From: Verrucomicrobiota bacterium
GTDB taxonomy: Bacteria > Verrucomicrobiota > Verrucomicrobiia > Opitutales > Opitutaceae
DNA: 43,062 nt
Assembly: GCA_030601755.1 (NCBI GenBank)
Contig: JAUWBF010000024.1
Span: forward strand, 1-43,062
Direction: 5' to 3'
Below are positions 15,101 through 31,987 of this stretch, piece after piece (the stretch's first letter is position 1; each line of letters begins with the position of its first letter). Under the pieces are notes generated by a model. It saw nothing but the letters and a program-made list of their open reading frames with translations, was not told the origin of the DNA and searched no databases. A program made the translations under genes and the position numbers.

Positions 15101-15566
15101 AACGAGCGCCGGGGACGGGGCCGTGACTTTCGAGGCGGGCGTGGATTTTCCTCAATGGGACGGCCTTCGGCTTCTGGTCGAGGCCTCCCGTTCGGGATAC
15201 GCCAGAGTGAATCGGGAATTCGCGGCGCGAGACTTGTCTGGACGACCGGTCATTGTCATGCCGCCGGCGGCCATCTTCCGCGCGCGTATCGTCGATCCGA
15301 ATACATCGGCTGGTGTCGCTGGCATTAGCATCAACTATAGTTACACCAAAATCCCGAACGGAAGCTATGCACGTCACGGCACCGGCCCGGTTAGCGACGT
15401 CGACGGCTGGTTCACCTTTACGGATCTGATGCCCGATCAACCTTTCGTCTTTTCATACAGCGTCCCGAACGCGCTGGGCAGCCTATGGCTGGAGCCTGAA
15501 AAGAAAGGCGACCTCACCGCTGCGGATTCCGGTGTGACGATTTATACCAAACCCGTGCCGCGTTGA
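12165..15566 (+). CDS. M56 (BlaR1-type) membrane peptidase with carboxypeptidase-regulatory repeats
   Basis: Protein of 1133 residues, start at ATG 12165 coupled to blaI. The N-terminal region has membrane helices (SLWIGLVLWLVLRV; GATVLLFTGWGMAWMM; one near 130) and the zinc-metalloprotease motif HELAH (221-225), with a downstream Glu in REEREACCDAW as probable third ligand. A further helix (LTWRGTVGVLALILCGLAAY) leads to about 700 extracytoplasmic residues of beta-sandwich repeats, e.g. VSGRVVDERGRPVAEARISI and VRVLDEAGGPVAGARVDW, of the carboxypeptidase regulatory type. It lacks the penicillin-binding sensor domain of BlaR1, so the stimulus is probably not a beta-lactam; the repeats may sense an envelope or polysaccharide signal. 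Cleaving BlaI is the inferred output. Confidence 0.9.
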   Translation: MSPLLTSLLHSLWIGLVLWLVLRVTLRGGRLSTEARHGLAVGATVLLFTGWGMAWMMASAGAGGTTMVATVVVPPESVLVVNQAVSVAAPAEAPIMALARERSAGVGERLRRLDRMVMVQWCLEWAWALGVCFGLARLVHGLRAGGTRWLGSQTVGELPAVWLSAWQGRLEVIAARLKARLVAIEAAGAPMVVGLLEPVIVVPLASCAGITPEMARVALAHELAHVARRDWLVEIGLRVVEAVLFFNPFVWLLTARVREEREACCDAWACERLQCSGEAVAESLAAWARRLTESEPAATGALGLEGGLLRRVERLLGGVSAGRALTWRGTVGVLALILCGLAAYGVALRWGARSLSDAERVALLDDVAAPHVAANPWVPQPVSEVRPERIVSGRVVDERGRPVAEARISIWTGDHRTSGSVKTDVDGNFAARRAFAGPAELRVQADGVAMRRAYVNADEAELADAIIMPDGLSVPVRVLDEAGGPVAGARVDWNLDVFAPRDADQAVSDRDGRVVIPHLPMDIPVYVRAEADGYAAVGIGPLTSDQLAGRTPAEIRMIPGRSVTLRVVADDGGNPVAKARVRVESLQPRWSPGVYPHPSWNYRGLSTDAEGSVVLNHLRPDTSYRLRVEAPMLTDVELPLVNAPAVEQEVRLRKGGKITVKLKNLPEEFRSDSMTLWLEQGGGRWAAPLRPQSDGTTSVVLSLRDAGPVTLRFADERWAAWTVRAKSVAELGEVVEFDFSQPPADAVEVKRHRVAIRFMDGSREVFPSGRFFIHRKATERSWDGDAFALEPGKALHAEWPAGTRLRLTDASQMIGAKVSPDAIDEQREFVVDERLTEIVVPVTPAGLVRAQVRSADGELLRSAGISGANETDNESRKRYIVFTGNQSMGEWQISGPVEFSFWRTPIWAAEGLVFARGPAVKVSERQPVVDVVVTLPKTRTYRVYITDDEGKPLPAVVCTITARFDSDMHRSVPFGHLQRTSAGDGAVTFEAGVDFPQWDGLRLLVEASRSGYARVNREFAARDLSGRPVIVMPPAAIFRARIVDPNTSAGVAGISINYSYTKIPNGSYARHGTGPVSDVDGWFTFTDLMPDQPFVFSYSVPNALGSLWLEPEKKGDLTAADSGVTIYTKPVPR

Positions 15567-15680
15567 CATCGTGACAATTTGCCGTTGTCGGGACGCGTTG
15601 TTGTTCTGCAACGCTTTGCGCGCCGCGCTTGCCAGCGATCATCCGTTCGGGCTGACTCCGCCGATTTTCCCGACCACGCC

Positions 15681-17096
15681 ATGAGCCTTAAAGTCAGCAT
15701 CATCTCCCTCGGTTGCGCCAAGAACCTCGTCGACAGCGAGGTCATGATCGGCCACCTGCACCAGGCCGGCATGTCCGTGATCCCCGAGGCCGACAAGGCC
15801 GACGTCGTGGTGGTCAACACCTGCTCGTTCATCGACTCGTCCAAGGAGGAATCGATCAACCACATCCTCGAGGTCAACCAGCAGCGCGGCATGCGCAAAC
15901 GCAACCAGGCGCAGAAGCTCATCGTCGCCGGCTGCATGGCCCAGCGCTTCAACAAGGACCTGCCCGACGCCCTCCCCGAGGTCGACGCGTTCATCGGCCT
16001 CGACCAGGTCACCAAGATCGTCCCGATCATCGACGACATCTACGCCAAGGAACGCGCCGCCGGCGACAAGCCCGTCACCTTCCACGAGGGCCGCTCGACC
16101 TGGATTCCCGACTACGACACGCCGCGATTCCGCCTCACTCCGAAGCACTTTGCCTACATCAAGATCGCCGAGGGCTGCAACCATCCCTGCACTTTCTGCA
16201 TCATCCCGCAGATCCGCGGCCGCCACCGCTCGCGCACCGTCGAGTCCGTCGTCAAGGAAGCCCGCCAACTCGTCGCCGAGGGCGTCAAAGAGATCAATCT
16301 CATCTCCCAGGACACGACCTACTTCGGCATGGACACCTGGGAGCAGCGTCCCAACCCCCGCACGCCCGTCGACTCCGGCCGCGGCACCGCGCTCACCACG
16401 CTGCTGCGCGAACTCAACGCCATTGAAGGGGATTTCTGGATACGCCTGCTCTACACCCACCCCGCGCACTGGTCCGACGAACTGATAAAAACCATCGCCG
16501 AGTGCCCCAAGGTCGCCCGCTACATCGACATCCCGCTGCAGCACATCAGCGACCACATGCTGGGAAAAATGCAGCGCGAGACCAGCGGCGACTACATCCG
16601 CGATCTCATTGCCCGCATCCGCGCCGGCATCCCCGGCATCGCGGTGCGCACCACCTTCATCGTCGGCTTTCCCGGCGAGACCAAGGCCGACGTCGACGAG
16701 CTGGCCGAGTTCATCGAGCAGACCAAGTTCGAGCGCCTCGGCGTCTTCCGCTACTCGCAGGAGGACGGCACCCGCGCCGCCAAGATGGAGGAGCAGGTCG
16801 CCAAGAAGACCAAGGAGTCGCGCTGGCACCGTTTGATGGCCTTGCAGAAGGACATCGCCGCGCAGGTCAGCGCGAGCTACGTTGGCAAGGCCCTTCGCGT
16901 GTTGGTCGAGGAACCCGGCGTGGCCCGCGGCGAGGCCGACGCCCCCGACATCGACGGTCGCGTCTACGTGGACAAAAAACTCAAGGTCGGCGAATTCCAC
17001 GACGTCGTCATCACCGGCTTCCACGAATACGACCTGCTGGCCCTGCCGCCCGGCGTCGAGCCGCGCGAATACAAGGTCGCCAAGCAGGCGCAGTAA
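15681..17096 (+). CDS. rimO: Ribosomal protein S12 methylthiotransferase RimO
   Basis: Radical SAM methylthiotransferase of 471 residues that adds a methylthio group to the conserved Asp of ribosomal protein S12. The start at ATG 15681 gives MSLKVSIISLGCAKNLVDSE. The UPF0004 domain has its three Cys (LGCAKN, NTCSFID, AGCMAQRF) for the auxiliary 4Fe-4S cluster. The radical SAM motif is AEGCNHPCTFCIIPQIRGRH. A C-terminal TRAM domain follows (LRVLVEEPGVA to DVVITGFHEYDLLA). LGCAKNLVDSE distinguishes RimO from MiaB. It is a stand-alone gene after the M56 operon. Confidence 0.96.
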   Translation: MSLKVSIISLGCAKNLVDSEVMIGHLHQAGMSVIPEADKADVVVVNTCSFIDSSKEESINHILEVNQQRGMRKRNQAQKLIVAGCMAQRFNKDLPDALPEVDAFIGLDQVTKIVPIIDDIYAKERAAGDKPVTFHEGRSTWIPDYDTPRFRLTPKHFAYIKIAEGCNHPCTFCIIPQIRGRHRSRTVESVVKEARQLVAEGVKEINLISQDTTYFGMDTWEQRPNPRTPVDSGRGTALTTLLRELNAIEGDFWIRLLYTHPAHWSDELIKTIAECPKVARYIDIPLQHISDHMLGKMQRETSGDYIRDLIARIRAGIPGIAVRTTFIVGFPGETKADVDELAEFIEQTKFERLGVFRYSQEDGTRAAKMEEQVAKKTKESRWHRLMALQKDIAAQVSASYVGKALRVLVEEPGVARGEADAPDIDGRVYVDKKLKVGEFHDVVITGFHEYDLLALPPGVEPREYKVAKQAQ

Positions 17097-17168
17097 GCGG
17101 CGGCCCGTCGCATGCACCGTCGGCGTGACGAGACGTTTGTCGCGCGCCTCGTCACGACGCCGCGTCTG

Positions 17169-17564
17169 TCACAGGATCGAGCCGCCCGACCCGGGGCCGC
17201 CCTTCACCCAGGCGACGGCCTTCTCCTTTTCCCGAAACACCCCGATCTGGATCAGCGGATGGGTGTTGAGCGTCTGCAGCATGCGCGCGAAACCGAATTG
17301 CCCGGCGGTCGGCGTCACGATGGCGGAGCGCACCGGGTTGCGCAGCGTCACGCCCCGGCAGCTCTCGGCCAAGCTGTCGATGTCCATGAAGTTGGCCCGG
17401 ATGTCGGTCTCCGAGTCCAGCACGCACAAGGTGGGCGGCGAATGATCCTGGGCGCGCTCCAGCGCAACCATCGCGCGGACGACCTCGGACATCTGCGAAA
17501 GATCCACCGAACCGCGGAAGATCGCTTCGATGATGCCTGAATGTAAGCGCGTTTGGACGGCCAT
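17169..17564 (-). CDS. Small STAS/SpoIIAA-like protein (paralogue B)
   Basis: Soluble protein of 131 residues, homologous over its whole length to the product at 2757-3131. Shared blocks include TLRNPVRSAIV versus TLKNPVWSALV, and GQFGFARMLQTLNTHPLIQI versus HQFGFLRMFQTLNTHPQIEI. It ends in a Gly/Ser-rich tail (GGPGSGGSIL) absent from paralogue A. The STAS-like fold is inferred from the strand-helix pattern. It is divergent from the esterase gene at 17672 and convergent with rimO, so it appears to be a single-gene unit. Function unknown. Confidence 0.72.
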   Translation of the reverse strand: MAVQTRLHSGIIEAIFRGSVDLSQMSEVVRAMVALERAQDHSPPTLCVLDSETDIRANFMDIDSLAESCRGVTLRNPVRSAIVTPTAGQFGFARMLQTLNTHPLIQIGVFREKEKAVAWVKGGPGSGGSIL

Positions 17565-17671
17565 GGCTTGATTGCGCAGTGTGGTGCGGGGCGACGGCCG
17601 GCGTCAATCGACGCGGAGACGCGATTCGCTTCGCCAACGCCGGGATGTGCATGCAAGCGTGGTCCGCAGTC

Positions 17672-18637
17672 ATGCGACACGATTTCCCCTTTGATCCCAC
17701 CGGAGGTTATTCCGCCGAGGCCCTGATTGCCGGCCCGGTCGCCCCGTTGCCGCCCGAACCGCCCGACTTCGCGTCTTTCTGGCGGGCTACGTTTTCCGAG
17801 GCGATGGCCGCTTCGCTCGACTGGCACCTGGAGCCGTCGGTCAGCCATCCGGGCAACGAAGGGTGGGAGGTCTTCGACGTCAGCTTTGCCGGCATGGCCG
17901 GCGAGCACCGTGTGGGCGGTTGGCTCGTCAAGCCGCGCGGCCGCCCTGTCCGGCGCGGCTTGGTCTGGGGTCATGGCTACGGCGGCCGCGACGAGCCGCA
18001 GTTTAATCTGCCGGGCGATGATGTGGCGGCGATTTTCCCCGTCTGCACCGGCCTGCCGACCCGCAGCCCGCATCCGACCATCGGTGACAACGGCGGCTCG
18101 CACGTGATCTCGGGCATCGAGTCTCGCGAAACCTACTCGCATCGCTATTCGGTCATGGACATCTGGCGCGCGGCGTCGGTGCTGCTCGAGGCCGTGCCGG
18201 AGACGGCCGCGCGACTCGACTACCGCGGCGGCAGCTTCGGCGGAGGCATCGGGGCGCTGGCCTTGCCGTGGGACGATCGTTTCGTGGCGGCGCACCTCAC
18301 CGTGCCGAGTTTTGGCAACCACGACGTCCGCCTCGGTCTGCAATGCACCGGCAGCGGCGAAAGCGTGCGCCAGCTGTTTCAAGCGCGCCCGGAAATCCGT
18401 TCAGTGCTGGCCTACTTTGACTCGGCGGTGGCCGCGACCCACATCCGGATCCCGGTGCACGTCGGCGCGGCGGTGTTCGATCCCGCGGTGACGCCGCCTG
18501 GGCAATTTGCGGTCTATCATGCACTGGGCGGCCCCAAGCGGTTGTTCGTGCAAAGCACCGGGCATTTCGACCACGCTGGCACCCCCGCGGAAAACGAACG
18601 CATGGAGACGGAAATCCGGGACTTTCTCGCAGGCTGA
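17672..18637 (+). CDS. Acetyl xylan esterase-like hydrolase (AXE1, CE7 family)
   Basis: Alpha/beta-hydrolase of 321 residues, start at ATG 17672 (MRHDFPFDPTGGYSAEALIA). Catalytic triad candidates are Ser188 in RGGSFGGG, Asp270 in AVFDPAVTPPG and His298 in STGHFDHAG (His301 is an alternative). The oxyanion-region motif LVWGHGYGGRDEPQ also fits AXE1/cephalosporin C deacetylase enzymes. No signal peptide is visible, so it acts inside the cell, probably removing acetyl groups from imported xylo-oligosaccharides or related esters. Residues from 17645 or 17651 could extend the N-terminus by a few amino acids. No carbohydrate operon surrounds it. Confidence 0.85.
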   Translation: MRHDFPFDPTGGYSAEALIAGPVAPLPPEPPDFASFWRATFSEAMAASLDWHLEPSVSHPGNEGWEVFDVSFAGMAGEHRVGGWLVKPRGRPVRRGLVWGHGYGGRDEPQFNLPGDDVAAIFPVCTGLPTRSPHPTIGDNGGSHVISGIESRETYSHRYSVMDIWRAASVLLEAVPETAARLDYRGGSFGGGIGALALPWDDRFVAAHLTVPSFGNHDVRLGLQCTGSGESVRQLFQARPEIRSVLAYFDSAVAATHIRIPVHVGAAVFDPAVTPPGQFAVYHALGGPKRLFVQSTGHFDHAGTPAENERMETEIRDFLAG

Positions 18638-18718
18638 GTCGCGCCGGGGCGTCCGGTGGCGGTGCCCTCGTGTTTCGGGCGTTGCGCTTTGCCCTCCGGC
18701 CCTGTGGGGTGGGCGCTT

Positions 18719-19342
18719 ATGTCTTCACCCGAACTCTCCCTCGACACCACCGACCAGCGCGTCAGCTACGGCATCGCCATGAACATGGGCGCCAACATCG
18801 CCCGCCAAGGTGGCGTCGAAATCGACATGACCGCCTTCTTCGCCGGCCTGCAGGACGGCCTCAACGGCGCCAAGCCCCGCGTCAGCCAGGAAGACCTCCA
18901 GGCCGCCTTCCAGGAGGCCCAAGGGCGCATCGAGAAGATCAACTCCCAGCGCTCCGCCGCGCAGGCTCAGGCCGGCCAGGATTTCCTCGCCAAGAACAAG
19001 GTCCGCCCGGGCGTCGTCACCACCGCCTCCGGCCTGCAATACGAGATCCTTCGCGAAGGCTCCGGCGCCAAGCCCAAGTCCAGCCAGAGCGTCGAGGTCC
19101 ACTATCACGGCACCCTCATCGACGGCACCGTGTTCGACAGCTCCGTGCAGCGCGGCGAGACCATCTCGTTTCCCGTCACCGGCGTCATCCCCGGCTGGGT
19201 CGAGGCTCTGCAGCTCATGAGCGTCGGCTCCAAGTGGAAGCTCTACATCCCCTCCGACCTCGCCTACGGCGACCGCGGCCAAGGCCCGATCCCGCCCGCC
19301 AGCACCCTCATCTTCGAGGTCGAACTGATCGGCATCGAGTAA
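18719..19342 (+). CDS. FKBP-type peptidyl-prolyl isomerase (FkpA/Mip-like)
   Basis: Isomerase of 207 residues, start at ATG 18719 ([20 protein letters not shown]). An N-terminal helical dimerisation region with the Mip/FkpA pattern ([15 protein letters not shown], long helix 50-85) is followed by a C-terminal FKBP domain ([55 protein letters not shown]) with the usual active-site aromatics. Homologues are mostly periplasmic, but no signal peptide is seen here, suggesting a cytoplasmic chaperone-isomerase. A REP pair follows 11 bases after the stop codon. Confidence 0.92.
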
Positions 19343-19353
19343 AGGAATCGTTT

Positions 19354-19441
19354 GTAGGGGCCTCGCTTGCGAGGCCCGTTTGACGAACGCGGTCGATTTG
19401 CATCGTCGACATCGAACGGGCTTCGCGAGCGAAGCCCCTAC
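19354..19441. repeat. BIME: two inverted GTAG-type REP hairpins (copy 1)
   Basis: Two 27-base units face each other. The left unit (19354-19380) is GTAG followed by the stem GGGCCTCGC/GCGAGGCCC and GTT. The right unit (19415-19441) is its inverse with stem GGGCTTCGC/GCGAAGCCC, a compensatory change. A 34-base spacer separates them. This is the classic layout of a bacterial interspersed mosaic element and is the kind of DNA that RAYT proteins act on. A second copy lies at 23246-23343. It separates the FKBP gene from purT and could fold into a large cruciform or terminate transcription. Confidence 0.85.
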
Positions 19442-19508
19442 GTCAAAGCCCGGCCGGCCGGTGATCGCACTGGCAAGCCGGGCTTTTTTGCGTTCGCTTG
19501 GCGGCGTC

Positions 19509-20702
19509 ATGTTGCAACCCGGAACCTTCGCACCGCCTTCCTCACCACGCGCCACCCGCGTCCTCATGCTGGGCTCGGGAGAACTGGGCAAAGAGGTCGT
19601 GATCGAGCTGCAACGCCTCGGCTGCGAGGTGATCGCCTGCGACCGCTACCCCAACGCGCCCGCCATGCAGGTGGCGCATCGTTCGCACGTCTTCTCGATG
19701 CTCGACGGCGAGGCGCTCCGCCGTGTGATCGCCGAGGAAAAGCCCGACCTCGTCGTGCCCGAAATCGAGGCCATCGCCACCGACGTGCTCGTTGAACTCG
19801 AGGCGGCCGGACAACGCGTCATCCCGACCGCGCGCGCCGCCCGCCTGACCATGAACCGCGAGGGCATACGCCGGCTCGCCGCCGAGGAGCTGGGGCTGCC
19901 GACCTCGCCGTATCGCTTCGTCGCCACCGAGGCTGAGGCGCTCGCTGCGGGTGACGAGCTGGGCTTCCCCTGCGTGCTCAAACCGCTGATGTCGTCGAGC
20001 GGCCACGGCCAGAGCGTCGTGAAGACCGCCGCCGACATGGCCGCCGCCTGGCGCTACGCGCAGGAAGGCGCGCGCTCCGGCGCGGGGCGTTGCATCGTCG
20101 AGGGCTTTATCAAATTTGACTACGAGATCACCGTGCTGACGGTCTCCGCGGTGAACGGCATCCAGTGCTGCCCGCCGGTCGGCCACGTGCAGATCGACGG
20201 CGACTACCGCGAGAGCTGGCAGCCGTGCGCGATGTCGCCGGCGGCGTGGGCCGAGGCGCAGCGCGTGGCCAAGGCCGTCGTCGCCAACCTCGGCGGCCAC
20301 GGCTTATTCGGCGTCGAGTGTTTCGTGCGCGGCGACGAGGTGATGTTCAGCGAGGTGAGCCCGCGTCCGCACGACACGGGCCTCGTCACCATCGGCAGTC
20401 AGGCGTGGTCGGAATTCGCGCTGCACGCCCGCGCGATCCTCGGGTTGCCGGTGCCACCGGTGTATTTGGTTCGTCCCTACGCGCACAGCGTCGCGCTGCT
20501 CGGCCACGGCGACGGCGTTCCGGTTGTGTCCGGTGTCGCCGAGGCGCTGGCCGTTCCCGAGAGCCAGCTGCGCATTTTCGGCAAGCCCGTTTGCAAGGGC
20601 CACCGCCGCCTCGCGGTCGCCGTCGCCACCGGCGACACCGCCGACGAGGCCCGCGACCGCGCCCGCGCAACCGCCGCCGCCATCCGGATCACCGTTTCCT
20701 GA
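19509..20702 (+). CDS. purT: Formate-dependent phosphoribosylglycinamide formyltransferase PurT
   Basis: ATP-grasp enzyme of 397 residues that formylates GAR using formate and ATP in step 3 of purine synthesis. The start at ATG 19509 is chosen because the in-frame extension upstream to 19380 is encoded by the BIME. Motifs are [20 protein letters not shown] (N-terminal nucleotide-binding fold), [20 protein letters not shown] (ATP-grasp Lys and Gly-loop), [16 protein letters not shown] and [20 protein letters not shown] (metal-binding Glu). Length is typical. Use of formate by PurT fits an organism with fermentative metabolism, but the link is loose. It is followed by a 109-bp hairpin element. 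Confidence 0.95.
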
Positions 20703-20742
20703 CCCTCTAGCCGTGCCCGCCGCAGCACTCCGTCGAAAACCC

Positions 20743-20851
20743 CCGGAAAAAGACTAACCAGCTACGTTAGTTTTTATTTCGAATTTGGACGGTTTCGGGC
20801 CCCGCCTCCGAGGTGGAAAAAGGCTAACGTAGCTGGTTAGTCTTTTTCTGG
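20743..20851. repeat. 109-bp hairpin repeat element (copy 1)
   Basis: Two 28-base arms, 20743-20770 and 20824-20851, are inverted repeats of each other (27 of 28 identical). Each contains GACTAAC-N7-GTTAG with an A-run on one side, and the 7-base centre is CAGCTAC on the left and its complement GTAGCTG on the right. The 53-base middle begins TTTTTATTTCG and ends GAAAAAGG. An element of identical length lies at 22563-22671. Each arm is itself a small hairpin with A/T-rich flanks, so it could also serve as a bidirectional terminator. It occupies most of the gap between purT and cvfB. Confidence 0.85.
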
Positions 20852-20920
20852 GCTGGTCCGGTGAAACGGCGGTGGATTTGGCTCCTCACGGGCGGGGGAA
20901 GGGCGCAGGGTGGGGGCCAC

Positions 20921-21757
20921 ATGGCTCACATCGGCAAACGCAACACGCTCACCGTCCTTCGCTCCGCGCCTCCGGGCTACTACCTCGACGCAGGCACGCT
21001 CGGCGAGGTGTTGCTGCCGGGCTCGTTGATCCCGCCCGGCGCGAAGGTCGGCGACGCGCTGGAGGTGTTTTTGTATCGGGATTCCGAGGACAGGTTGGTC
21101 GCGACCACGGAGCTGCCTTACGCGCAGGTCGGCGAGTTCGCGTGCCTGCGCGTGGTCGGACTGTCGCCGCGCATCGGTGTGTTTCTGGACATCGGCCTCG
21201 CCAAGGACCTGCTGCTGCCAATGCGCGAATTGAAGACCGAGGGCGTGCGCACGGGCGACTGGCTGATCGTCTTTGTGACGCTCGACGAGCGCACCCAGCG
21301 CCTGATGGCCAGCGAGCGCCTGCAACGTCATCTCAGCCCCGACCGGCCGACCTACGCCGAGGGACAGGCGGTGAAGTTGCTCGTCACCGGCGAGACGCCG
21401 CTCGGCTACAAGGCGATCGTGGAAAACGCCCACGTCGGCCTGCTCTACCGCTCCGATCTCGCCGGTCCGCTGGGCAAGGGCGAACGCTTCGACGGCTTCG
21501 TGCGCACGGTGCGCGAGGACGGCAAGCTGGATCTCGCGCTCGACCAAGCCGGGCACACGCGCATCGACACCAACGCCGAACGCGTGATGACCGCGCTCAC
21601 CAAGGCGGGCGGCCGCCTGCCGTTTCACGACGACAGCTCGCCGGAGGAAATCCGCGAGGCCTTCGGCATGAGCAAGAAGGCCTTCAAGCAGGCCATCGGT
21701 TCGCTCTTCAAGGCCCGCCGGATCGTGATCACGCAGCACGGCATCCGCGTCGTGTGA
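20921..21757 (+). CDS. CvfB-like S1-domain RNA-binding protein
   Basis: Cytoplasmic protein of 278 residues related to CvfB/YitL. The start at ATG 20921 (MAHIGKRNTLTVLRSAPPGY) follows a G-rich ribosome-binding stretch. Several S1-like OB-folds are present: GYYLDAGTLGEVLLPGSLIP, then ACLRVVGLSPRIGVFLDIGL, and KAIVENAHVGLLYRSDL. The C-terminal winged helix has the family signature (LPFHDDSSPEEIREAFGMSK, KKAFKQAIGSLFKARRIVI). CvfB binds RNA and influences gene expression in firmicutes; the role here is unknown. It is convergent with radC, and both genes are enclosed by the two 109-bp elements. Confidence 0.9.
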   Translation: MAHIGKRNTLTVLRSAPPGYYLDAGTLGEVLLPGSLIPPGAKVGDALEVFLYRDSEDRLVATTELPYAQVGEFACLRVVGLSPRIGVFLDIGLAKDLLLPMRELKTEGVRTGDWLIVFVTLDERTQRLMASERLQRHLSPDRPTYAEGQAVKLLVTGETPLGYKAIVENAHVGLLYRSDLAGPLGKGERFDGFVRTVREDGKLDLALDQAGHTRIDTNAERVMTALTKAGGRLPFHDDSSPEEIREAFGMSKKAFKQAIGSLFKARRIVITQHGIRVV

Positions 21758-21773
21758 CGCCGGACACGAGCAC

Positions 21774-22508
21774 CTACAGCACGCCCGCCTCGCGGAAGCT
21801 GTAGTAACCCAGCCCGAGCGGGTCGACCTCGGCGCGGCCGATGATCACGTGGTCGAGCAACGGTATCTGCACCGCCTCCGCTGCCTCGCGCAGCTGTCGG
21901 GTGGAGCGCAGGTCGGCGCTGCTCGGGGCGGGGTCGCCGGACGGGTGGTTGTGCGCGCAGACGATGGCCGACGCGGCCTCCTGGATGGCGATGCGAAACA
22001 CCTCGCGCGGGTGCACGAGCGCGCTGCTCGCGATGCCCGAGGTGGCCTCGACGCAGCGTTGCAGGCGGTTTTTGCGGTCGAGGCAGAGCACCCAGAATTT
22101 CTCCACCGCGAGGCCCATCGCGAGGGGTTGGATCTGCGCGACGATGGCTTCGGGGCAGTCGACCATCGGGGACTGGCCGAGCCCCTGCAGGGCGACGCGT
22201 TTGGCGACCTCCATGACCGTGACCAGTTGCAACGCCTTGACCGGACCGATGCCCTTGAGCCGGCGAAAGTCTTTGGCCGTCCAGCGGGTCAACTTGGCGA
22301 GTGAGCCGGCCTCGGCCAGCAGGCGTCCGGCGAGCGTGAGCACGTCCTGACCGGCGGTGCCGCTGCGCAGCAGCATGGCGAGCAGCTCGGTGTCGGAGAG
22401 GTGGGACGGGCCGAGGCGCTGGAGCCGTTCCTGGGGCCGTTCGTCGACCGCGAGGCTGCGCAGGCGGTTGTTGTCGTCGAGTTTTGGATACGGCGTCGGC
22501 TCCGGCAT
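21774..22508 (-). CDS. radC: RadC/YsnA-family JAB-domain protein
   Basis: Protein of 244 residues with start at 22508 (MPEPTPYPKLDDNNRLRSLA); an ATG at 22523 adds five. An N-terminal helix-hairpin-helix region (LSDTELLAMLLRSGTAGQDV; FRRLKGIGPVKALQL) precedes the MPN/JAB metalloprotease-like domain with its conserved HxHPS motif (VCAHNHPSGDPAPSSADL) and upstream Glu (PREVF). Residues match a complete, potentially metal-binding site. Despite the name, the family's link to DNA repair is doubtful and its function is unsettled. Here it converges on cvfB with a 16-base gap. Confidence 0.94.
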   Translation of the reverse strand: MPEPTPYPKLDDNNRLRSLAVDERPQERLQRLGPSHLSDTELLAMLLRSGTAGQDVLTLAGRLLAEAGSLAKLTRWTAKDFRRLKGIGPVKALQLVTVMEVAKRVALQGLGQSPMVDCPEAIVAQIQPLAMGLAVEKFWVLCLDRKNRLQRCVEATSGIASSALVHPREVFRIAIQEAASAIVCAHNHPSGDPAPSSADLRSTRQLREAAEAVQIPLLDHVIIGRAEVDPLGLGYYSFREAGVL

Positions 22509-22562
22509 GACGAAACCGAGCAATGCCCGCGCGCGCCCCGCCGCGCAACCGCCAAACCACGC

Positions 22563-22671
22563 CCGGAAAAAGACTAACCAGACACGTTAGTTTTTATTTC
22601 GGATTTAGGCGGATATGGACCGCTTGGCAGAGGGAGAAAAAGGCTAACCAGACACGTTAGTCTTTTTCGGG
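22563..22671. repeat. 109-bp hairpin repeat element (copy 2)
   Basis: Same length and layout as 20743-20851. Arms are 22563-22590 and 22644-22671; the 53-base middle again starts TTTTTATTTCG and ends GAAAAAGG. Here the 7-base centre is CAGACAC in both arms on the same strand, that is direct rather than inverted as in copy 1. Both elements have the same orientation relative to the window. The right arm supplies the last codons and the stop codon of the gene at 22657-23148. Confidence 0.85.
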
Positions 22672-23148
22672 CGGACGCGGGGTTTTGTCGCGGGCGATGG
22701 CGAGGATGTGGCGGGAGAAGTCGGGGTCCTCGCCTTCGAGAAGGGCGGGCAGGACTTCGCGGAAATCGGGGCGGCGGCACCACTCGCGCATGTAGTCCTC
22801 CCAGGTTTGCCAGAGGCGGGCGGCCTGCCGGCTCATGCGCTCTTCGTAGACGAGAATGTAGGCCTGCTCGAAGATGGAGACGAGGACCTCGAAGAGGATG
22901 TTGCGACGCTCGATCTGCTCCGGGGTGAGGTCGACGGGGGGACGGGCGCGGCTCATGAGGCCGAGGTCGGCGTGCTGGAGGCAGAGTTGCAGGAACTGGG
23001 TGTAGCGGTCGGAGAGGCGCAGGTAGAGCTCCTCGTCGTCGTTGAGGCGCTCTTTGCGCTGCTCGATGATGAAGACGGCGATGGCGAGCGGCAGACCGAT
23101 GACGGTCACCACGTAGCTGAGGGCCTCCAGCCATTCGAGCGTGCTCAT
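22657..23148 (-). CDS. Membrane-anchored hypothetical protein
   Basis: Protein of 163 residues with one N-terminal hydrophobic segment (ALSYVVTVIGLPLAIAVFII) and a soluble, mostly helical remainder rich in Arg, Glu and Trp (LWQTWEDYMREWCRRPDFRE). I do not recognise a named family, though the layout of one membrane helix followed by a helical cytoplasmic tail is common in small DUF proteins. The final residues RPPEKD and the TAA stop are encoded by the arm of the 109-bp element, so that element sets the C-terminus. It may be the last gene of the leftward operon or, given the BIME upstream, a separate unit. Confidence 0.75.
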   Translation of the reverse strand: MSTLEWLEALSYVVTVIGLPLAIAVFIIEQRKERLNDDEELYLRLSDRYTQFLQLCLQHADLGLMSRARPPVDLTPEQIERRNILFEVLVSIFEQAYILVYEERMSRQAARLWQTWEDYMREWCRRPDFREVLPALLEGEDPDFSRHILAIARDKTPRPPEKD

Positions 23149-23245
23149 GCTAGGATCACGATAACCGGCGACGGATGCCGGTCAAACCGGCCTCGGCCGT
23201 CCGAGGTCGACTTCGGCGAGGAGGTTCGGGGAAGGGGGGCAGCGC

Positions 23246-23343
23246 GTAGGGGCCTCGCTCGCGAGGCCCGTTGCGCGCTGGCTGGAGGTTGACGGTCTAT
23301 CTGCAGTATGGCGATGAACGGGCCTCGCAAGCGAGGCCCCTAC
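23246..23343. repeat. BIME: two inverted GTAG-type REP hairpins (copy 2)
   Basis: Left unit 23246-23272 and right unit 23317-23343, each 27 bases. They read GTAG plus the stem GGGCCTCGC/GCGAGGCCC plus GTT, facing each other over a 44-base spacer. The loops differ (TC and AA). They are nearly identical to the units at 19354-19441, whereas the spacers are unrelated. The right unit ends five bases from the stop codon of the CoA-transferase gene, where it may help terminate the leftward operon. Confidence 0.85.
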
Positions 23344-23348
23344 GCGTC

Positions 23349-24845
23349 TCAGGCCTGCCACTCGGTGGCGGACATGGCGCCGGTCTTGAGGAACTGCTCG
23401 TGCATGCGGAAGGCGTTGCGCAGGGTCTGCGGGGTGTGGCCGTCCTTGGTGAGTTCGACGTAGCGCATGAGGGTGTCGCGGAACTCGGGGTGCGCGCACT
23501 TCTCCACGATGAGTCGGGCGCGCTCGAGCGGGTCCTTGCCGCGGAGGTCGGCCACGCCTTGCTCGGTGACGACGATCTGCACGGAGTGCTCGCTGTGGTC
23601 CATGTGGGAGACGAGCGGGACGATGGTGCTGATCTTGCCGCCCTTGGCGGAGGAGGGGCAGGTGAAGATCGAGATGTAGGCGTTGCGCGTGAAGTCGCCG
23701 GAGCCGCCGATGCCGTTCATGAGGTTGGAGCCCATGACGTGGGTCGAGTTCACGTTGCCAAACACGTCGAGCTCGATGGCGGTGTTGATGGTAATGATGC
23801 CGAGGCGGCGGACGATCTCGGGGTTGTTGGTGATTTCCTGCGGGCGCAGCAGGATGCGCGGGCGGAAGAACTCGAGGTCGTCGTAGAACTTCTGCAGCAC
23901 GGGCTGCGCGACGGTGAGCGAGGTGCCGGTGGCGAAGCGGATCTTGCCGCTGCGCACGAGGTCGATGACGGAGTCCTGGATGACCTCGGAATACATCTCG
24001 AAGGGCGGGATGTCGGGGTTGGTTCCGAGGGCGCCGAGCACGGCGTTGGCGATGTTGCCGACGCCGGACTGGAGCGGCAGGAACTCGCGGGGCACGCGGC
24101 CGACGGTGATCTCGTTGGCCAGGAAATCGGCGACGTTGGCGCCTATGCGGGCGGTCACGGGGTCGGTGGGGTCGAAGCCGCCGGTCTCGTCGGGCAGATC
24201 GGTGTAGACGACGGCGGCGATCTTCGCCGGGTCGACCTTGACCACGGGGCTGCCGATGCGGTCGGTGGCGCGCACGATGGGGATGGGCTGGCGGTAGGGC
24301 GGGTCGAGCGGCTCGTAGATGTCGTGGAAGCCGCGCAGGCGGGGCGAGTGAAAGGCGTTGACCTCGACGATGATTTTTTTGGCGCAGCGCAGGAAGGTGG
24401 GCGAGGCGCCGACCGAGGTGGTGAGCACGATCTGGCCGTCGGGGGTGATGTCGGCGGCTTCGACGATGGCCCAGTCGAACTCGCCGAGGAAACCGCAGCG
24501 CACCTGCTGGGGCAGGTGGGAGAGGTGCATGTCGAAGAACTTGGTTTTGCCGGCGTTGATGTTGGCGCGGAGGTGCTTGTTGCTCTGGTAGGGCGTGCGC
24601 CAGGAGATGGCGTCGGCGCGGGCGAGTTCACCATCGAGCGAGTCGCCGGTGGAGGCGCCGGTGACGACGGCGACTTGGAAGGGACGACCGGCCTGGTGCT
24701 CGGCGGAGGCGCGCGCGGCGAGGGCCTTGGGCACGGCCTTGGCGGCGCCGGCGGGGGTGAAACCGCTGAAGCCGATGGTGGCACCGTGATGGATCATCGC
24801 GGCGGCCTCTTCCGGGGAGAGCACAGGATAGGTCGTGGGAGTCAT
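23349..24845 (-). CDS. Succinate/propionate CoA-transferase (acetyl-CoA hydrolase family)
   Basis: Enzyme of 498 residues in the Cat1/AarC/ScpC family. It would move CoA from propionyl-CoA to succinate (or acetate), closing the propionate cycle; cytoplasmic. The catalytic Glu is Glu287 in FEMYSEVIQDSVIDL, which forms the glutamyl-CoA thioester in this family. Conserved glycine-rich stretches are SGVGNIANAVLGAL and NGIGGSGDF, and the C-terminal VVTEQGVADLRGKDP is intact. Location at the end of the methylmalonyl-CoA operon favours propionyl-CoA:succinate transfer over acetyl-CoA hydrolysis, but the substrate cannot be fixed from sequence. Confidence 0.92.
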   Translation of the reverse strand: MTPTTYPVLSPEEAAAMIHHGATIGFSGFTPAGAAKAVPKALAARASAEHQAGRPFQVAVVTGASTGDSLDGELARADAISWRTPYQSNKHLRANINAGKTKFFDMHLSHLPQQVRCGFLGEFDWAIVEAADITPDGQIVLTTSVGASPTFLRCAKKIIVEVNAFHSPRLRGFHDIYEPLDPPYRQPIPIVRATDRIGSPVVKVDPAKIAAVVYTDLPDETGGFDPTDPVTARIGANVADFLANEITVGRVPREFLPLQSGVGNIANAVLGALGTNPDIPPFEMYSEVIQDSVIDLVRSGKIRFATGTSLTVAQPVLQKFYDDLEFFRPRILLRPQEITNNPEIVRRLGIITINTAIELDVFGNVNSTHVMGSNLMNGIGGSGDFTRNAYISIFTCPSSAKGGKISTIVPLVSHMDHSEHSVQIVVTEQGVADLRGKDPLERARLIVEKCAHPEFRDTLMRYVELTKDGHTPQTLRNAFRMHEQFLKTGAMSATEWQA

Positions 24846-24893
24846 GGCGAATAGGGAGATGCGAAAAGGGAAGATGGGAGATGGCTGATGGCC

Positions 24894-25658
24894 TCAGAAG
24901 GCCTCGCGCAGGCGGGCGACCTGCAACGGGGAGAGAACATGACGCGCACCGTCGTCGGCGTCGAGCTGGAGGCGGCCTTGCGCGTCGACGGCGGTCAGGC
25001 GGCCGACGAGCGGCGTGGCGCGGTTGTCGAGGTCGATGGAGACGCGCGCGCCGGTCCAGGCGGTGTTGAGCGTGGGCAACAGGTCCGCGACGGAGCGGTC
25101 GGCGACGAGGTGCTGGGCGTGGGCGAGGCGGGCGAGGATGGTGTCGAGCACGACGGCGCGGGTGGGCGCTGGGGAGAGCAGGTCGGCTAGGCGCGTGGTC
25201 TGGCCGGCGAGAGTGTCGTCGTGGAGCTCGGGGCGGTTGACGAGGTTGAGCCCGAGGCCGACGACGGCGGTGTCGGGCCGGAAGCGTTCGACGAGGATGC
25301 CGGCGAGCTTGGCGCGGCCGACCATGACGTCGTTGGGCCAGCGTAGCCGGATGTTGAATACGCCGAGGTCGGCGAGGGCGGCGCGCACGGCCCAGCCGGC
25401 GGCGAGCGGCAGGATGGCCCAGTCGGCGACGGGGCCGGGGGTGGGCAGCACGGCGGAGAGCCAGAGGCCGCCCTCGTCGGAGACCCAGGCGCGGCGGTGG
25501 CGTCCGCGGCCGCCGGTCTGGCGGTCGGCGACGACTGCGTGCCAGCCGGGCAGGGGGGCGGCGAGGTCGTTGGTCGAGACGGCCTTGGTGTGCAGGTGCA
25601 GCGTCCACTCCGGCGTGGCCGGGGAGAGAGGAGAGGCGGTGACGTGCGGCGCGACCAT
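24894..25658 (-). CDS. birA: Biotin protein ligase (BirA, catalytic type without HTH)
   Basis: Ligase of 254 residues that attaches biotin to carrier lysines through biotinyl-AMP. The start at ATG 25658 (MVAPHVTASPLSPATPEWTL) gives a class I enzyme without the N-terminal repressor domain. The adenylation loop is GGRGRHRRAWVSDEGGLW, and RLRWPNDVMVGRAKLAGILV contains the biotin-contacting Lys. The BPL C-terminal domain follows (LVGRLTAVDAQGRLQLDADD). It is 20 bases downstream of an oadB-type gene and in the same operon as the biotin carrier at 29063-29464, its obvious substrate. Confidence 0.92.
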   Translation of the reverse strand: MVAPHVTASPLSPATPEWTLHLHTKAVSTNDLAAPLPGWHAVVADRQTGGRGRHRRAWVSDEGGLWLSAVLPTPGPVADWAILPLAAGWAVRAALADLGVFNIRLRWPNDVMVGRAKLAGILVERFRPDTAVVGLGLNLVNRPELHDDTLAGQTTRLADLLSPAPTRAVVLDTILARLAHAQHLVADRSVADLLPTLNTAWTGARVSIDLDNRATPLVGRLTAVDAQGRLQLDADDGARHVLSPLQVARLREAF

Positions 25659-25678
25659 GGCGGAAGGGGAGTTGGCGG

Positions 25679-26932
25679 TCAGTTGGCGAACGATGAGATG
25701 AAGTAGCCCGCGGCGACGGCGGTGCCGATGACGCCGGCGACGTTGGGGCCCATGGCGTGCATGAGCAGGTAGTTGCCGGAGTCGTATTTCTGGCCCTCGT
25801 TGTGGGAGACGCGGGCGGCCATGGGCACGGCGGAGACACCGGCCGAGCCGATGAGCGGGTTGATGGGGTATTTTTTCGAGAAGCAGTTCATGAGCTTCGC
25901 CACGAGCACGCCGGAGGCGGTGGAGACGCAGAAGGCGACGACGCCGAGCACGATGATCTTGAGCGTGCCGCCGGCGAGGAAGCTGTCGGCGCGCATGGTG
26001 AGGCCGACGCTGGTGCCGAGGAAGATGGTGAGCACGTTGATGATCTCGTTTTGCGCGGACTTCACGAGGCGCTCGGTGACACCGCATTCGCGGAGGAAGT
26101 TGCCGAGCATGAGCATGGCAATCAGCGCGGAGGCGTCGGGCACGAGGAGGATGCAGACCATCATGACGAGCACCGCGAAGATGAGCTTTTCCAGCTTGGA
26201 GACCTTGCGCAGGGACTTCATGCGGATCTTGCGCTCCTTGTCGGTGGTGAGCAGCCGCATGATCGGCGGCTGGATGAGCGGCACAAGCGACATGTAGCTG
26301 TAGGCCGCGACGGCGATGGCGCCGAGGAGTTCGGGAGCGAGCTTGTTGGACAGGAAGATGGCGGTGGGGCCGTCGGCGCCGCCGATGATGCCGATGGCGG
26401 CGGCTTGCTTGGAGGTGAAGCCCATCAGCGACGCGCCCATGAAGGTGATGAACAGGCCGGCCTGCGCGGCGGCGCCGAGGAACAGCGTGCGCGGCATGGC
26501 GATGAGCGGACCGAAGTCGGTTAGCGCCCCGACGCCGAGGAAGATCAAAGGGGGGAACAGCTCGAGCTTGATACCTTGCGAGATGAAGTCGTAGAGGCCG
26601 CCCTCGACCTTCTCGACCTTGTAGGTTTGCGAGGCGTGGGCCGGGGTGTGAGCCGCAGGGGCGTCGGGCGATGCCTGATGCGGCGACATCTCGACGTTGA
26701 ACGTCGCTGTCTCATAGACGCCGTCGGGGCGCAGCTCGCTGGTGATGACGCCGCGGGTGGGCAGGTTGGCGATGAGCGCGCCGAAGGCGATGGGCACGAG
26801 CAGCAGGGGCTCGAAGCCCTTGGCGACTGCGAGCCAGAGCAGGACCGCGACCACGCCCCACATCACGAGCATTTGCCAGGTGATGAATTGGAAGCCGGTG
26901 GTGGTGAGGTAATCGAGGAGGTTCTGCAACAT
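25679..26932 (-). CDS. Na+-pumping decarboxylase beta subunit, OadB/MmdB type
   Basis: Integral membrane carboxybiotin decarboxylase of 417 residues, which couples CO2 release from carboxybiotin to Na+ export. The key Asp motif is IGIIGGADGPTAIFL (Asp203 in Klebsiella OadB). Region IV is complete: NPLIGSAGVSAVPMAARV carries the Asn, Gly, Ser and Arg equivalents of 373, 377, 382 and 389, followed by HAMGPNVAGVIGTA. An unusual hydrophilic loop of about 50 residues follows the second N-terminal helix (roughly 60-110, Ala/Pro/His-rich). This is the canonical pump subunit of the operon and differs clearly from the second beta-type gene at 27635. Confidence 0.94.
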   Translation of the reverse strand: MLQNLLDYLTTTGFQFITWQMLVMWGVVAVLLWLAVAKGFEPLLLVPIAFGALIANLPTRGVITSELRPDGVYETATFNVEMSPHQASPDAPAAHTPAHASQTYKVEKVEGGLYDFISQGIKLELFPPLIFLGVGALTDFGPLIAMPRTLFLGAAAQAGLFITFMGASLMGFTSKQAAAIGIIGGADGPTAIFLSNKLAPELLGAIAVAAYSYMSLVPLIQPPIMRLLTTDKERKIRMKSLRKVSKLEKLIFAVLVMMVCILLVPDASALIAMLMLGNFLRECGVTERLVKSAQNEIINVLTIFLGTSVGLTMRADSFLAGGTLKIIVLGVVAFCVSTASGVLVAKLMNCFSKKYPINPLIGSAGVSAVPMAARVSHNEGQKYDSGNYLLMHAMGPNVAGVIGTAVAAGYFISSFAN

Positions 26933-26959
26933 GGCCGTGGGGTCTGTATTCGGAGGGGG

Positions 26960-27370
26960 TTAACGAGGGCGGTGGGAGGCGAAGATCTGCCGGCGGCCTT
27001 CCATGGCCCAGTGCGCGTTGTGAGGCATGGGCGAGATGGCGACGATGCGGTGGCCGGCGCCGACGGTGAGGTGCACGGCGGCGGCGATCAGCGCGACGAG
27101 TTCGGGCGCGAGGGCGTCGTCCGCGGAGGGAGCAGGCTTCGCGGCCGGAGTGGCCGGTGCGCCTGGGCAGACGATGGTGGTCGTCTTGCTTGCGGAAGCC
27201 GCGGACTTGGATCTGAGCGCGAAGATCTTTCCGAGAATCTCGAGCAGGAACCAGATGCTGCCCAGCACGAGGAACACGACGACCAGACCGCTCAGCTGGA
27301 AGCTGATGGTCTCGGAAATCTCCGGGTGTTCGGGCAAGGCGGCGAGAGGGAGGGTGAGGGCGGTATTCAA
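26960..27370 (-). CDS. OadG-like small subunit of the decarboxylase (paralogue B)
   Basis: Protein of 136 residues with one membrane helix (LSGLVVVFLVLGSIWFLLEI), a Ala/Pro/Ser-rich linker and a C-terminal soluble piece (LAPELVALIAAAVHLTVGAG, ending HWAMEGRRQIFASHRPR). Topology matches OadG/MmdD subunits, which tether the carboxyltransferase to the membrane beta subunit. It is paralogous to 29490-29876, sharing PEL-A-I-AAV and the ending W-(A/M)-EGRRQI-SH. It precedes the canonical oadB gene by 27 bases, suggesting the two form a functional pair. Confidence 0.8.
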   Translation of the reverse strand: MNTALTLPLAALPEHPEISETISFQLSGLVVVFLVLGSIWFLLEILGKIFALRSKSAASASKTTTIVCPGAPATPAAKPAPSADDALAPELVALIAAAVHLTVGAGHRIVAISPMPHNAHWAMEGRRQIFASHRPR

Positions 27371-27419
27371 GGCAAGAACGGGTTGGAGGTTGTCTTGACG
27401 GACGGTTGGGACGGGCCGC

Positions 27420-27638
27420 TTAGCTTTCGGGAGAGGAGGTCTCCTCCCTTTGGATGCGTTTGCGGACTCCGAGCATGATCACGCCGAGGCCGACGACCGC
27501 GACGAGGCGGCCGGCGAACACGACGAGACGAGAGTGGCCGTCGATCCACTCCGGCCCGAGGCGGGCCAGCACCACGCCGCACAGGGCGATGGTCGTGCCG
27601 GCCAGCCACGGCAGGGGATTGACGGAGAGATTCTTCAT
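27420..27638 (-). CDS. Small membrane protein (72 aa) of the decarboxylase operon
   Basis: Protein of 72 residues with two hydrophobic segments (LPWLAGTTIALCGVVLARLG and VVFAGRLVAVVGLGVIMLG) and a charged tail (VRKRIQREETSSPES). Its ATG overlaps the stop codon of the upstream oadB-type gene (ATGA, 27635-27638), so it is translationally coupled to it. I do not recognise a family. Its place between the two pump modules suggests an accessory subunit or assembly factor, by context only. Confidence 0.75.
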   Translation of the reverse strand: MKNLSVNPLPWLAGTTIALCGVVLARLGPEWIDGHSRLVVFAGRLVAVVGLGVIMLGVRKRIQREETSSPES

Positions 27639-28897
27639 TGGTCGAGGAGCGGGATGAGCGTGACGAAGATGCCGGTGAAGATCGCCGAGGTGATCACGCC
27701 GCTGATGCTGGCGCCGAGGGCCTCGGGCAGGATGATCGAATCGGGTGCGACCTTGCTTACCTCCTTCTGGGCGACCTTGGCGGTGCTGGGCACGCAGCTG
27801 ATGCCGGCGATGCCGATGACGGGGTTGATCTTGCGGCCGCTCAGCAGGTAGGCGATGAAACCGGCGCAGATGCCGCCCACGCCGGAGAGGAAAAGCGCGA
27901 GGATGCCGAGGACGAGCAGGATGACGACCTTGGGATTTAGGATGGTCGAGGCCTCGCAGAGCACGCCGAGCAGCAGGCCGAGAAAGAGGGTGGCGCCGTA
28001 GAGCAGAGGGCCGTCGATGACCTGCATGAAGACCTTGATGCCGGACTCGCGCACGGCGACGCCGATGAAGAGCGAGAAGAACAGCGGCGCGGCCGAGGGG
28101 AACAGCAGGCAGAGCACCGCGCAACCGACGACGGCGAAGGCGAGCTTTTCGTCGGCGGTGACCTTGAGGGTCTTCTTGGGCGGCATCTTGATCGCGCGCA
28201 GCTTGGCCGGCACGAGGAAGCGGATCAGGTAGGGGAAGCCGCCGTAGGTGAGTCCCAAATACAGGTAGGCGACCACGGTGATCGGCACGAAGAGGTGCTT
28301 GGCCAGCGTGAGCGAGGTGAAGAGCACCATGGGGCCGTCGGCACCGCCGACCATGGCGATCGAGGCGGCCTCGCCGGGCGTGAGGCCGAGGGCGATGGCG
28401 ATGGGGAAGGTGGCGACGGTGCCGAACTCGGCGCCGAGCGCGATGAACATGCTGAGGAACGGGCGGGCGAGCAGGAAACCGACGTCGAGCAAGACGCCGA
28501 TGCCCATGAACACGAAGCAGGCGATCAGGCCGTTGCTGAAGGCGAACGTGTAGACCGGCTGGAGGAAATCCACCTGCATGAGGTAGATCAGGTTGTCGGT
28601 CTGCTGCACGAGCGGCGCCATGAAGAGCGTGCCGTGGACCTTGTCGCCGGAGTTGACCGCCGACTCGGTGACGGCGGCGGCGGTGGTCGGATCAAGGAAG
28701 AGCACGCCGGCGTTGACCGCGATCATGCCGAGGCCCATGGGGATCATCAGCAGGGGCTCGAGCACGCCCTTCTTGCCGAAGTAGACGAGAAACGCGCCCA
28801 GGACCATCAGGCCGATCCGGCCCGCGAGGATCAGCGGGTCGGAGTCGATGAGGGTCGTGATGCCCTGGAAGAGGTCGAGGATCTGGGAGGCGTGCAT
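27635..28897 (-). CDS. Second, divergent OadB-type carboxybiotin decarboxylase subunit
   Basis: Membrane protein of 420 residues in the Na+-translocating decarboxylase beta family. The Asp motif is kept (IAMVGGADGPMVLF). In region IV, NPVIGIAGISCVPSTAKV keeps the Asn, Gly and Ser equivalents of Klebsiella 373, 377 and 382 but has Lys for Arg389, and the later HAMGPNVAGVIG block reads EALGASISGVIT. It lacks the long hydrophilic loop of the other copy. The sequence GFPYLIRFLVPAKLRAI recalls carboxybiotin decarboxylases linked to other acyl substrates (MadB/GcdB types); this assignment is tentative. It is coupled to the 72-residue gene downstream and preceded by the 41-residue gene. Confidence 0.9.
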   Translation of the reverse strand: MHASQILDLFQGITTLIDSDPLILAGRIGLMVLGAFLVYFGKKGVLEPLLMIPMGLGMIAVNAGVLFLDPTTAAAVTESAVNSGDKVHGTLFMAPLVQQTDNLIYLMQVDFLQPVYTFAFSNGLIACFVFMGIGVLLDVGFLLARPFLSMFIALGAEFGTVATFPIAIALGLTPGEAASIAMVGGADGPMVLFTSLTLAKHLFVPITVVAYLYLGLTYGGFPYLIRFLVPAKLRAIKMPPKKTLKVTADEKLAFAVVGCAVLCLLFPSAAPLFFSLFIGVAVRESGIKVFMQVIDGPLLYGATLFLGLLLGVLCEASTILNPKVVILLVLGILALFLSGVGGICAGFIAYLLSGRKINPVIGIAGISCVPSTAKVAQKEVSKVAPDSIILPEALGASISGVITSAIFTGIFVTLIPLLDQ

Positions 28898-28924
28898 GGC
28901 GGGCGTGGGGATGGCGCGGCGGTC

Positions 28925-29050
28925 TCAGCGCGCCCCGCCGGAGAACCGGCGGAGCAGGCCGAAGAGTCCTTTGATCATCAGCGCGACCATCATCGAGATG
29001 CCGAAGGCCAGTGCGTAGACGCCGAGTGACAAAAGGAGCGCGGATTTCAC
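28925..29050 (-). CDS. Very small membrane protein (41 aa), possible epsilon-type subunit
   Basis: A 41-residue ORF starts at GTG 29050 and ends with TGA at 28925. The sequence has one hydrophobic helix (LLLSLGVYALAFGISMMVAL) and a basic tail (GLFGLLRRFSGGAR). It fits between the biotin carrier gene (12-base gap) and the second oadB-type gene (27-base gap) and has no competing ORF. Small single-helix subunits (epsilon of Veillonella methylmalonyl-CoA decarboxylase, about 55 residues) are known in these pumps, so an equivalent role is plausible. No sequence identity is claimed. Confidence 0.65.
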   Translation of the reverse strand: MKSALLLSLGVYALAFGISMMVALMIKGLFGLLRRFSGGAR

Positions 29051-29062
29051 GGTGATGCGGGA

Positions 29063-29464: not shown

Positions 29465-29489
29465 GGTGACAAATTGGGGTTCGGTTGAG

Positions 29490-29876: not shown

Positions 29877-29909
29877 GATCGTTTGAATACGGAGTTGGCG
29901 GCCGTGCGG

Positions 29910-31463: not shown

Positions 31464-31503
31464 GGCGGTAAGGGGGCGGGCGGTTGCGCGGGCTGGGCGG
31501 GAA

Positions 31504-31911: not shown

Positions 31912-31987
31912 GGCGTTGGTAAAATCGACTGGTTGCGGTTGTCGCTGATCAGTGTGCCCGAAAGCGTTCCGCGCAGCTTCGCATCCC

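Follow-up and report, generated by a model that had tools for sequence, protein, structure and literature searches.

Cro/CI (XRE) repressors bind operators of 17 bp. Palindromic repeats of bacteria are usually credited to RAYT transposases or are left without a cause. PMC3733652 describes GTAG REPs as abundant in Opitutus terrae and reports REP copies within genes of that species; it also files the Rickettsia palindromic elements RPE-4 and RPE-6, which are REP-sized, with the tagged repeats.

Here we describe a window of 43,062 nucleotides, the whole stretch of DNA that was analysed (contig JAUWBF010000024.1, Opitutaceae). The initial annotation had noticed in it two 109-bp hairpin elements around the convergent genes cvfB and radC, and had proposed either a new class of non-autonomous repeat or paired bidirectional terminators.

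The two elements of the window

Two 109-bp elements with similar arms and a 53-bp middle are indeed present around the convergent cvfB-radC pair, element 1 in the gap between the purT-like and cvfB-like genes and element 2 in the gap between radC and a 163-aa ORF, the order being purT-like (+), element 1, cvfB-like (+), radC (-), element 2 and 163-aa ORF (-) (Table 1). The ORF has no Pfam match at E 0.001, and its stop codon lies inside the right core of element 2.

Table 1. Positions of the elements, their parts and the genes discussed (window coordinates, or locus:coordinates where a locus is given)
Feature	Position	Strand	Remarks
purT-like gene (ATP-grasp, PurT_C)	19509-20702	+	upstream of element 1; start codon provisional
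Element 1 (family-1 pair)	20743-20851	.	109 bp; 70 bp core to core
Left core of element 1, CTAAC-CAGCTAC-GTTAG	20754-20770	+	
Middle of element 1	20771-20823	.	53 bp
Right core of element 1	20824-20840	-	loop inverted relative to left core
cvfB-like gene (S1_2, CvfB_WH)	20921-21757	+	
radC (RadC JAB domain, UPF0758_N)	21774-22523	-	
Element 2 (family-1 pair)	22563-22671	.	109 bp; 70 bp core to core
Left core of element 2, CTAAC-CAGACAC-GTTAG	22574-22590	+	
Middle of element 2	22591-22643	.	53 bp
Right core of element 2	22644-22660	+	orientation as left core
163-aa ORF	22657-23148	-	ends inside element 2
HTH1, 142 aa	L022:3085-3513		bracketed by two family-1 sites
HTH2, 141 aa	L065:1065-1490	complement	starts 10 nt away from a family-2 pair (distance to nearer core)

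Alignment of the two elements revealed that 85 of the 109 positions were identical, with 38 of 53 in the middles and 21 of 36 in the inner 36 bp of the middles, a value as high in none of 20,000 shuffles. In the flanks identity falls to 16/40 and 9/40, and the likeness ends at the edges. Since the elements are alike edge to edge and not beyond, a whole pair has been copied together with its middle.

Each element consists of two 17-bp near-palindromes, CTAAC-CAGNYAY-GTTAG, with an A-rich left edge and a T-rich right edge. The description of the elements is refined by their asymmetric 7-bp loops, which face each other in element 1 (CAGCTAC and GTAGCTG) and share one direction in element 2 (CAGACAC twice). 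As the loop orientations differ between the elements, each arm is a complete small palindrome; a long hairpin spanning the whole of element 2 would be imperfect, with 74% complementarity versus 91% for element 1. CTAAC-N7-GTTAG with at most one mismatch occurs four times in the window versus 0.16 expected, and an Rfam search of positions 20500-22900 gave one match, at 19.4 bits versus a gathering score of 200, and none above threshold.

Family 1 in the genome

The search for further copies that the annotation had proposed yielded 43 exact CTAAC-N7-GTTAG sites in this genome (family 1) versus 3 for the reversed pattern, and 43 (23+20) versus 0 when CAG was required, CAG following CTAAC on one strand at 43/43 sites. 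The loops are CAGCTAC (17 sites), CAGATAC (17), CAGACAC (4), CAGATAT (2), and CAGACAT, CAGTTAC and CAGATAA (1 each). The two strands fold alike, with mean energies of -14.4 and -14.6 kcal/mol; the 21-nt core, with an inner stem of 5 bp, has a mean of -4.7 kcal/mol. Paired edge positions covary (0.205 versus 0.135 in column shuffles, 0/500 as high), a sign of strand folding or of some process that makes palindromes, and not of half-sites that are independent of each other.

All 43 sites lie outside the genes predicted by a home-made gene caller. The gaps that hold them are 25 tandem, 8 convergent and 8 divergent, with one neighbour missing for 2, in line with the 68 tandem, 17 convergent and 16 divergent gaps of at least 40 nt in the same loci, a background that includes the gaps holding family-1 sites. 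For 24/43 sites, versus 444/860 random noncoding places, the gene end closest by is a 3' end; 1/33 sites lies within 30 nt of a start versus 136/648 random places, and 6/35 overlap a stop codon versus 15/664. The sites seem to keep away from starts and not to be placed at 3' ends in particular. The caller had misplaced the start of the gene for HTH1, so that one family-1 site is actually 9 nt away from a likely start. For 17 of the 43 sites there is no second exact site within 500 bp, one of the 17 having a decayed partner.

That the elements enclose exactly one convergent gene pair, cvfB-radC, as the annotation had noted, is probably incidental, since family-1 pairs elsewhere in the genome occupy gaps of all three types (tandem, convergent, divergent). 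The two elements are an ordinary instance of the dispersed palindrome, and are unlikely to serve cvfB or radC in any special way.

In 372 genomes of the order, among which this genome is the sole member of its genus, family 1 gave nothing convincing outside this genome. CTAACCAGNNNNGTTAG was found here and once each in five other genomes; four of these five matches have a loop outside CAGNYAY (the fifth, in G252, fits), and as a paired base just beyond the core occurs in 0/5, all look like chance. The family-1 pattern with A/T edges was not found in genome contigs or viral contigs, sets in which this genome is possibly not included.

Families 2 and 3

Family 2, GTAACC-YAWTR-GGTTAC, has 32 sites in this genome versus 0 for the controls. 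Of the 77 genomes of the taxonomic family, 24 (this one included) carry it, at 1-52 sites each, and of 295 genomes from other families of the order none does, all controls being 0; the five genomes of one genus carry 0, 13, 0, 52 and 3 copies. Of the 37 stretches found by a scan of genome contigs, 28 bear the titles Opitutus, Opitutaceae or Verrucomicrobia, and the other nine come from Butyrivibrio (3), Bacteroidetes (2), Polaribacter, Flavobacterium, Paludibacteraceae and one Rhodobacterales record. Outside the Opitutus, Opitutaceae and Verrucomicrobia titles, operators or terminators of the ordinary kind can take the form of a family-2-like palindrome. The contig titled Rhodobacterales 32-66-7 (L193) carries both family-2 and family-3 palindromes and may be mis-binned Opitutaceae DNA.

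The outer arms of family 2 vary by lineage in the relatives with pairing kept, the first two outer positions being paired in 0.89 and 0.80 of 76 sites versus 0.46 and 0.30 when arms were shuffled. A third 17-bp family, GTCACTTA-N-TAAGTGAC, occupies at least seven places in the loci of this genome. The families of this genome, three or more in number, differ in their cores and have one plan in common, namely a 17-bp near-palindromic core inside an A/T-edged palindrome of about 25-35 bp, present singly or as two with a short middle. Among the matches listed from open-licence PMC papers, none was by its title about palindromic repeats of this kind, and the four full cores had 0 occurrences.

Insertion and copying

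Five of the 30 family-2 sites examined (32 in the genome) lie in frame inside predicted genes, one in a TatD-like, two in a PabB-like, one in a DinG-like helicase and one in a GH2-like gene. The TatD-like protein has 10 extra residues (AKSNPIGYSF) at the family-2 unit, a single palindrome of 30 bp and not a pair, and 14/14 aligned homologues of relatives are without them; this one family-2 unit has been inserted into a new place. No target duplication was definable, by inspection, at this single clean insertion. Empty sites, which the annotation had suggested looking for, were thus seen for the TatD-like gene and not for PabB or the GH2 enzyme, where comparison with homologues gave no clean gap at the family-2 sites. 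In the hypervariable linker of the helicase the exact family-2 core was found in 5 of 29 relatives compared, four times as pairs, and also in one named MAG.

Comparison of 109 proteins of this genome with the 37 stretches revealed three places common to other species. A single family-1 site here (L010) stands at the same junction as a family-2 pair in ZE-03apr19-77 (L186), as if one family had been replaced by the other; one family-2 junction is common to RX2 bin 19, and the helicase family-2 site is common to 339R. That the dispersed palindrome has spread is well supported and, in our judgement, very probable, and the proposal of a new class of non-autonomous repeat gains support from the many copies, the several families, the one clean insertion and the patchy spread.

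Spacing of the pairs

The spacings of 24 of 25 family-2 pairs fall at 44-45, 53-58, 66-68 or 77-79 bp, that is in steps of about 11 bp; a spacing of 120 bp composed of two shorter ones was left out of the 25. The values were 45, 56 (four times), 57, 67 and 68 in this genome, 44, 45 and 93 in the named MAGs, 45, 54, 54 and 78 in the helicase linkers, and 45 (three times), 53, 54, 56 (partner with one mismatch), 58, 66, 77 and 79 in other loci of relatives. The best period is 11.5 bp with R 0.78, as high in 0/3000 uniform sets, shared ancestry of the pairs meaning that the spacings are partly inherited and represent fewer than 25 independent events, and five of the pairs lying inside genes with spacings that are multiples of 3. 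Leaving out this genome gave R 0.71 (n=17, p 0.0007), a single entry for each genome and spacing gave R 0.75 (n=21, 0/3000), and taking each distinct value once gave R 0.71 (n=14, p 0.005). For family 1 the test is weak (n=13, p 0.013 with scanned period).

The period of 11.5 bp is near the repeats of 11.08 and 11.60 bp given for in-vivo looping in PMC1762422, and the spacing signal ties the family-2 pairs to double-stranded DNA. Paired sites would lie on approximately the same face of the helix, where protein dimers could touch or loop the intervening DNA.

HTH-like proteins adjoining the sites

Self-comparison of the proteins that adjoin sites linked two HTH-like paralogues, HTH1 at family 1 and HTH2 at family 2, which are 55% identical. 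The ATG of HTH1 (L022:3085) lies 9 nt past the first family-1 core and its stop codon lies within the second. HTH2 matches Pfam HTH_3 at E 4e-4 (20.8 bits, under the cut-off of 23), while HTH1 matches only YdaS_toxin (E 0.026). The AlphaFold model of HTH2 is poor (pLDDT 62.6), and its best PDB matches, all at E 0.46 or worse, include Cro/CI-type HTH proteins. The gene for HTH1 is situated about 1.2 kb from dnaN (L022:4740-5864).

Homologues of HTH1 and HTH2 were absent from the loci of relatives, which represent a small part of each genome; no HTH was found near dnaN in G126 and G172, relatives without family 2, and HTH2 had no match in plasmid and viral searches. The contig ends examined in five further relatives that carry family 2, and in one that does not, contained no dnaN. 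In three Butyrivibrio contigs GTAACCNANTNGGTTAC, a family-2-like palindrome, lies upstream of a gene with HTH_3 and nucleotidyltransferase domains, the HTH_3 matches being above the cut-off (E 2e-10, 1e-9 and 7e-11), with a second imperfect palindrome 29-30 bp off in each contig. The Butyrivibrio arrangement may be taken as an independent analogy for a link between palindrome and HTH protein.

Other repeats and motifs

GTAG-type repeats, GTAGGGGCCTCGC-GCGAGGCCC, occur in the window at 19354-19380, 23243-23272 and 23317-23346, the last two as an inverted pair; by description they resemble the GTAG REPs reported from Opitutus terrae in PMC3733652. A Y1_Tnp (RAYT-like) transposase gene lies at the very start of the contig (42-365), and positions 1-1500 around it hold no family-1, -2 or -3 sites. 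Two inverted repeat pairs, 36278-36327/36438-36487 with 50-nt arms and 37619-37663/37764-37808 with 45-nt arms, contain CACAGAG-rich and AACGCAAAGACGCAAAGG-rich sequence and are perhaps other dispersed repeats.

In the loci of this genome CAGAGG is present in the middle of 8/8 family-2 pairs and 3/13 family-1 pairs, and TTTTCAGAGG in 4/8 and 1/13, respectively; random stretches of the window contain CAGAGG at a frequency of 0.01 for a length of 40 bp and 0.04 for 120 bp. TTTTCAGAGG(T/G)AAAA was observed both within the middles of hairpin pairs and on its own (L102, L104, L105, L113 and others). TTTCAGAGGTAAA occurs in 25/80 genomes of the taxonomic family, and in 30 loci examined (29 from relatives) it lies 4-31 nt past a tRNA gene in five and beside dnaN in two.

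Discussion

The elements are best explained as pairs of REP/RPE-like dispersed palindromes, without the GTAG tag or a seen RAYT link, that are putative operators for HTH proteins, a reading for which we find the case evenly balanced. The 17-bp cores would be operators, each family having its own paralogue among small HTH proteins of the Cro/CI type, and each protein would probably be autoregulated through the site adjoining its own start codon. That the HTH-like proteins next to the sites bind them is a considered conjecture from gene adjacency that stands about an even chance of being right. The asymmetric loop of family 1 is odd for a site of a symmetric dimer and counts against the operator reading, as do the covariation of the family-1 arms, the absence of HTH homologues from the few loci of relatives compared, the weak domain match of HTH1 and the poor model of HTH2. 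A fuller version is possible though doubtful: mobile palindromes unrelated to RAYT/REP, each family the operator of its own Cro/CI-like protein, could co-evolve with that protein, shifts of specificity giving rise to a new family such as family 1, with the protein bridging the phased pairs and perhaps aiding the spread of copies. No transposase linked to the palindromes was found in the loci examined.

If the elements were REPIN-like, with a RAYT (Y1 tyrosine transposase) mobilising them in the form of single-stranded hairpins, the pair would be the mobile unit. The pairing around a middle, the ability of both strands to form hairpins, the mostly extragenic location and the covariation of the arms would all suit such an origin, and three Y1_Tnp genes are present in the genome. 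However, family-1, -2 or -3 sites were found in none of the three Y1_Tnp stretches examined, two of which lack a flank, as one begins a contig and the other lies close to the end of one. GTAG occurs within 16 nt at 0/43, 0/30 and 0/7 sites of families 1, 2 and 3 (background 0.05), and the separate GTAG-type repeats of the window would suit RAYTs. The insertion in the TatD-like gene consists of one palindrome and not of a pair, and helical phasing would be unexpected for a single-stranded intermediate. We consider movement by a RAYT unlikely.

Bidirectional intrinsic terminators, doubled in pairs, are a weak rival and an improbable main role. The symmetry of A-tract, stem and T-tract, the folding energies on the two strands, the scarcity of family-1 sites near starts and their frequent overlap with stops are what terminators might show, but convergent gaps are not enriched, the share of sites nearest to a 3' end is that of random places, and the 5-bp inner stem is weak. 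The many single family-1 sites and the family-2 sites inside genes likewise speak against the terminator proposal of the annotation. Termination does not require a conserved loop, which also counts against it. A terminator scan of 13000-32000 gave 12 candidates versus 11.3 expected and none at the elements, under a rule (three G-C pairs in the stem) that could hardly see them.

Chromosome-organising sites of the kind of matS or of Noc/SlmA sites, with HTH proteins shaping the nucleoid, seem very unlikely. The abundance of 17-bp palindromes, with tens in a genome both within genes and between them, the phased family-2 pairs and the position of the HTH1 gene near dnaN would fit such a role, but genomes of a single genus differ in copy number between 0 and 52, and the sites are distributed along the contig in G154 (all five) and in G196 (the ten listed of 36), unlike G164, in which the eight listed of 13 family-2 sites fall in two zones. 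The boxes do not appear to fit the consensus of attC or of tyrosine-recombinase core sites.

Returning to the dispersed palindromes as putative operators, the families described here have no seen RAYT link and, for two of them, a candidate protein. Binding of the cores by the HTH proteins, if true, would show that such repeats can be operators. The clean in-frame insertion lies in a gene of known fold, and the patchy congeners suit studies of gain and loss.

Like REP/REPIN-RAYT systems, the sites are short palindromes, mostly extragenic, single or in doublets with a middle. They differ in the absence of the GTAG tag, in the occurrence of CGTC at only 3/43, 2/30 and 0/7 sites of families 1, 2 and 3 (below the background of 0.21), in the absence of a RAYT beside the palindromes in the stretches examined, and in the helical spacing of family-2 pairs and the HTH-like genes at sites. 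The REPIN unit is an inverted doublet; the pairs here occur in inverted and in direct orientation, and many sites are single. With bacterial MITEs they share a palindromic and dispersed nature; on inspection no parent IS was seen and, at the one clean insertion, no target duplication was definable. The Rickettsia palindromic elements are similar in being palindromic units in frame within protein genes that add a peptide. In-frame insertion of this kind is found here in the TatD-like gene and in the helicase linker copies, and is not clean in PabB and GH2; the elements described in PMC10969869 are about 150 bp long versus 30 bp for the TatD unit, and RPE-4 and RPE-6, compared by their description in PMC3733652, are filed there with repeats whose tag is absent here.

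Tens of sites per genome, most of them away from starts, distinguish these palindromes from the operators of Cro/CI (XRE) repressors, with which they share the length and symmetry of the site and the HTH-like start that adjoins it.
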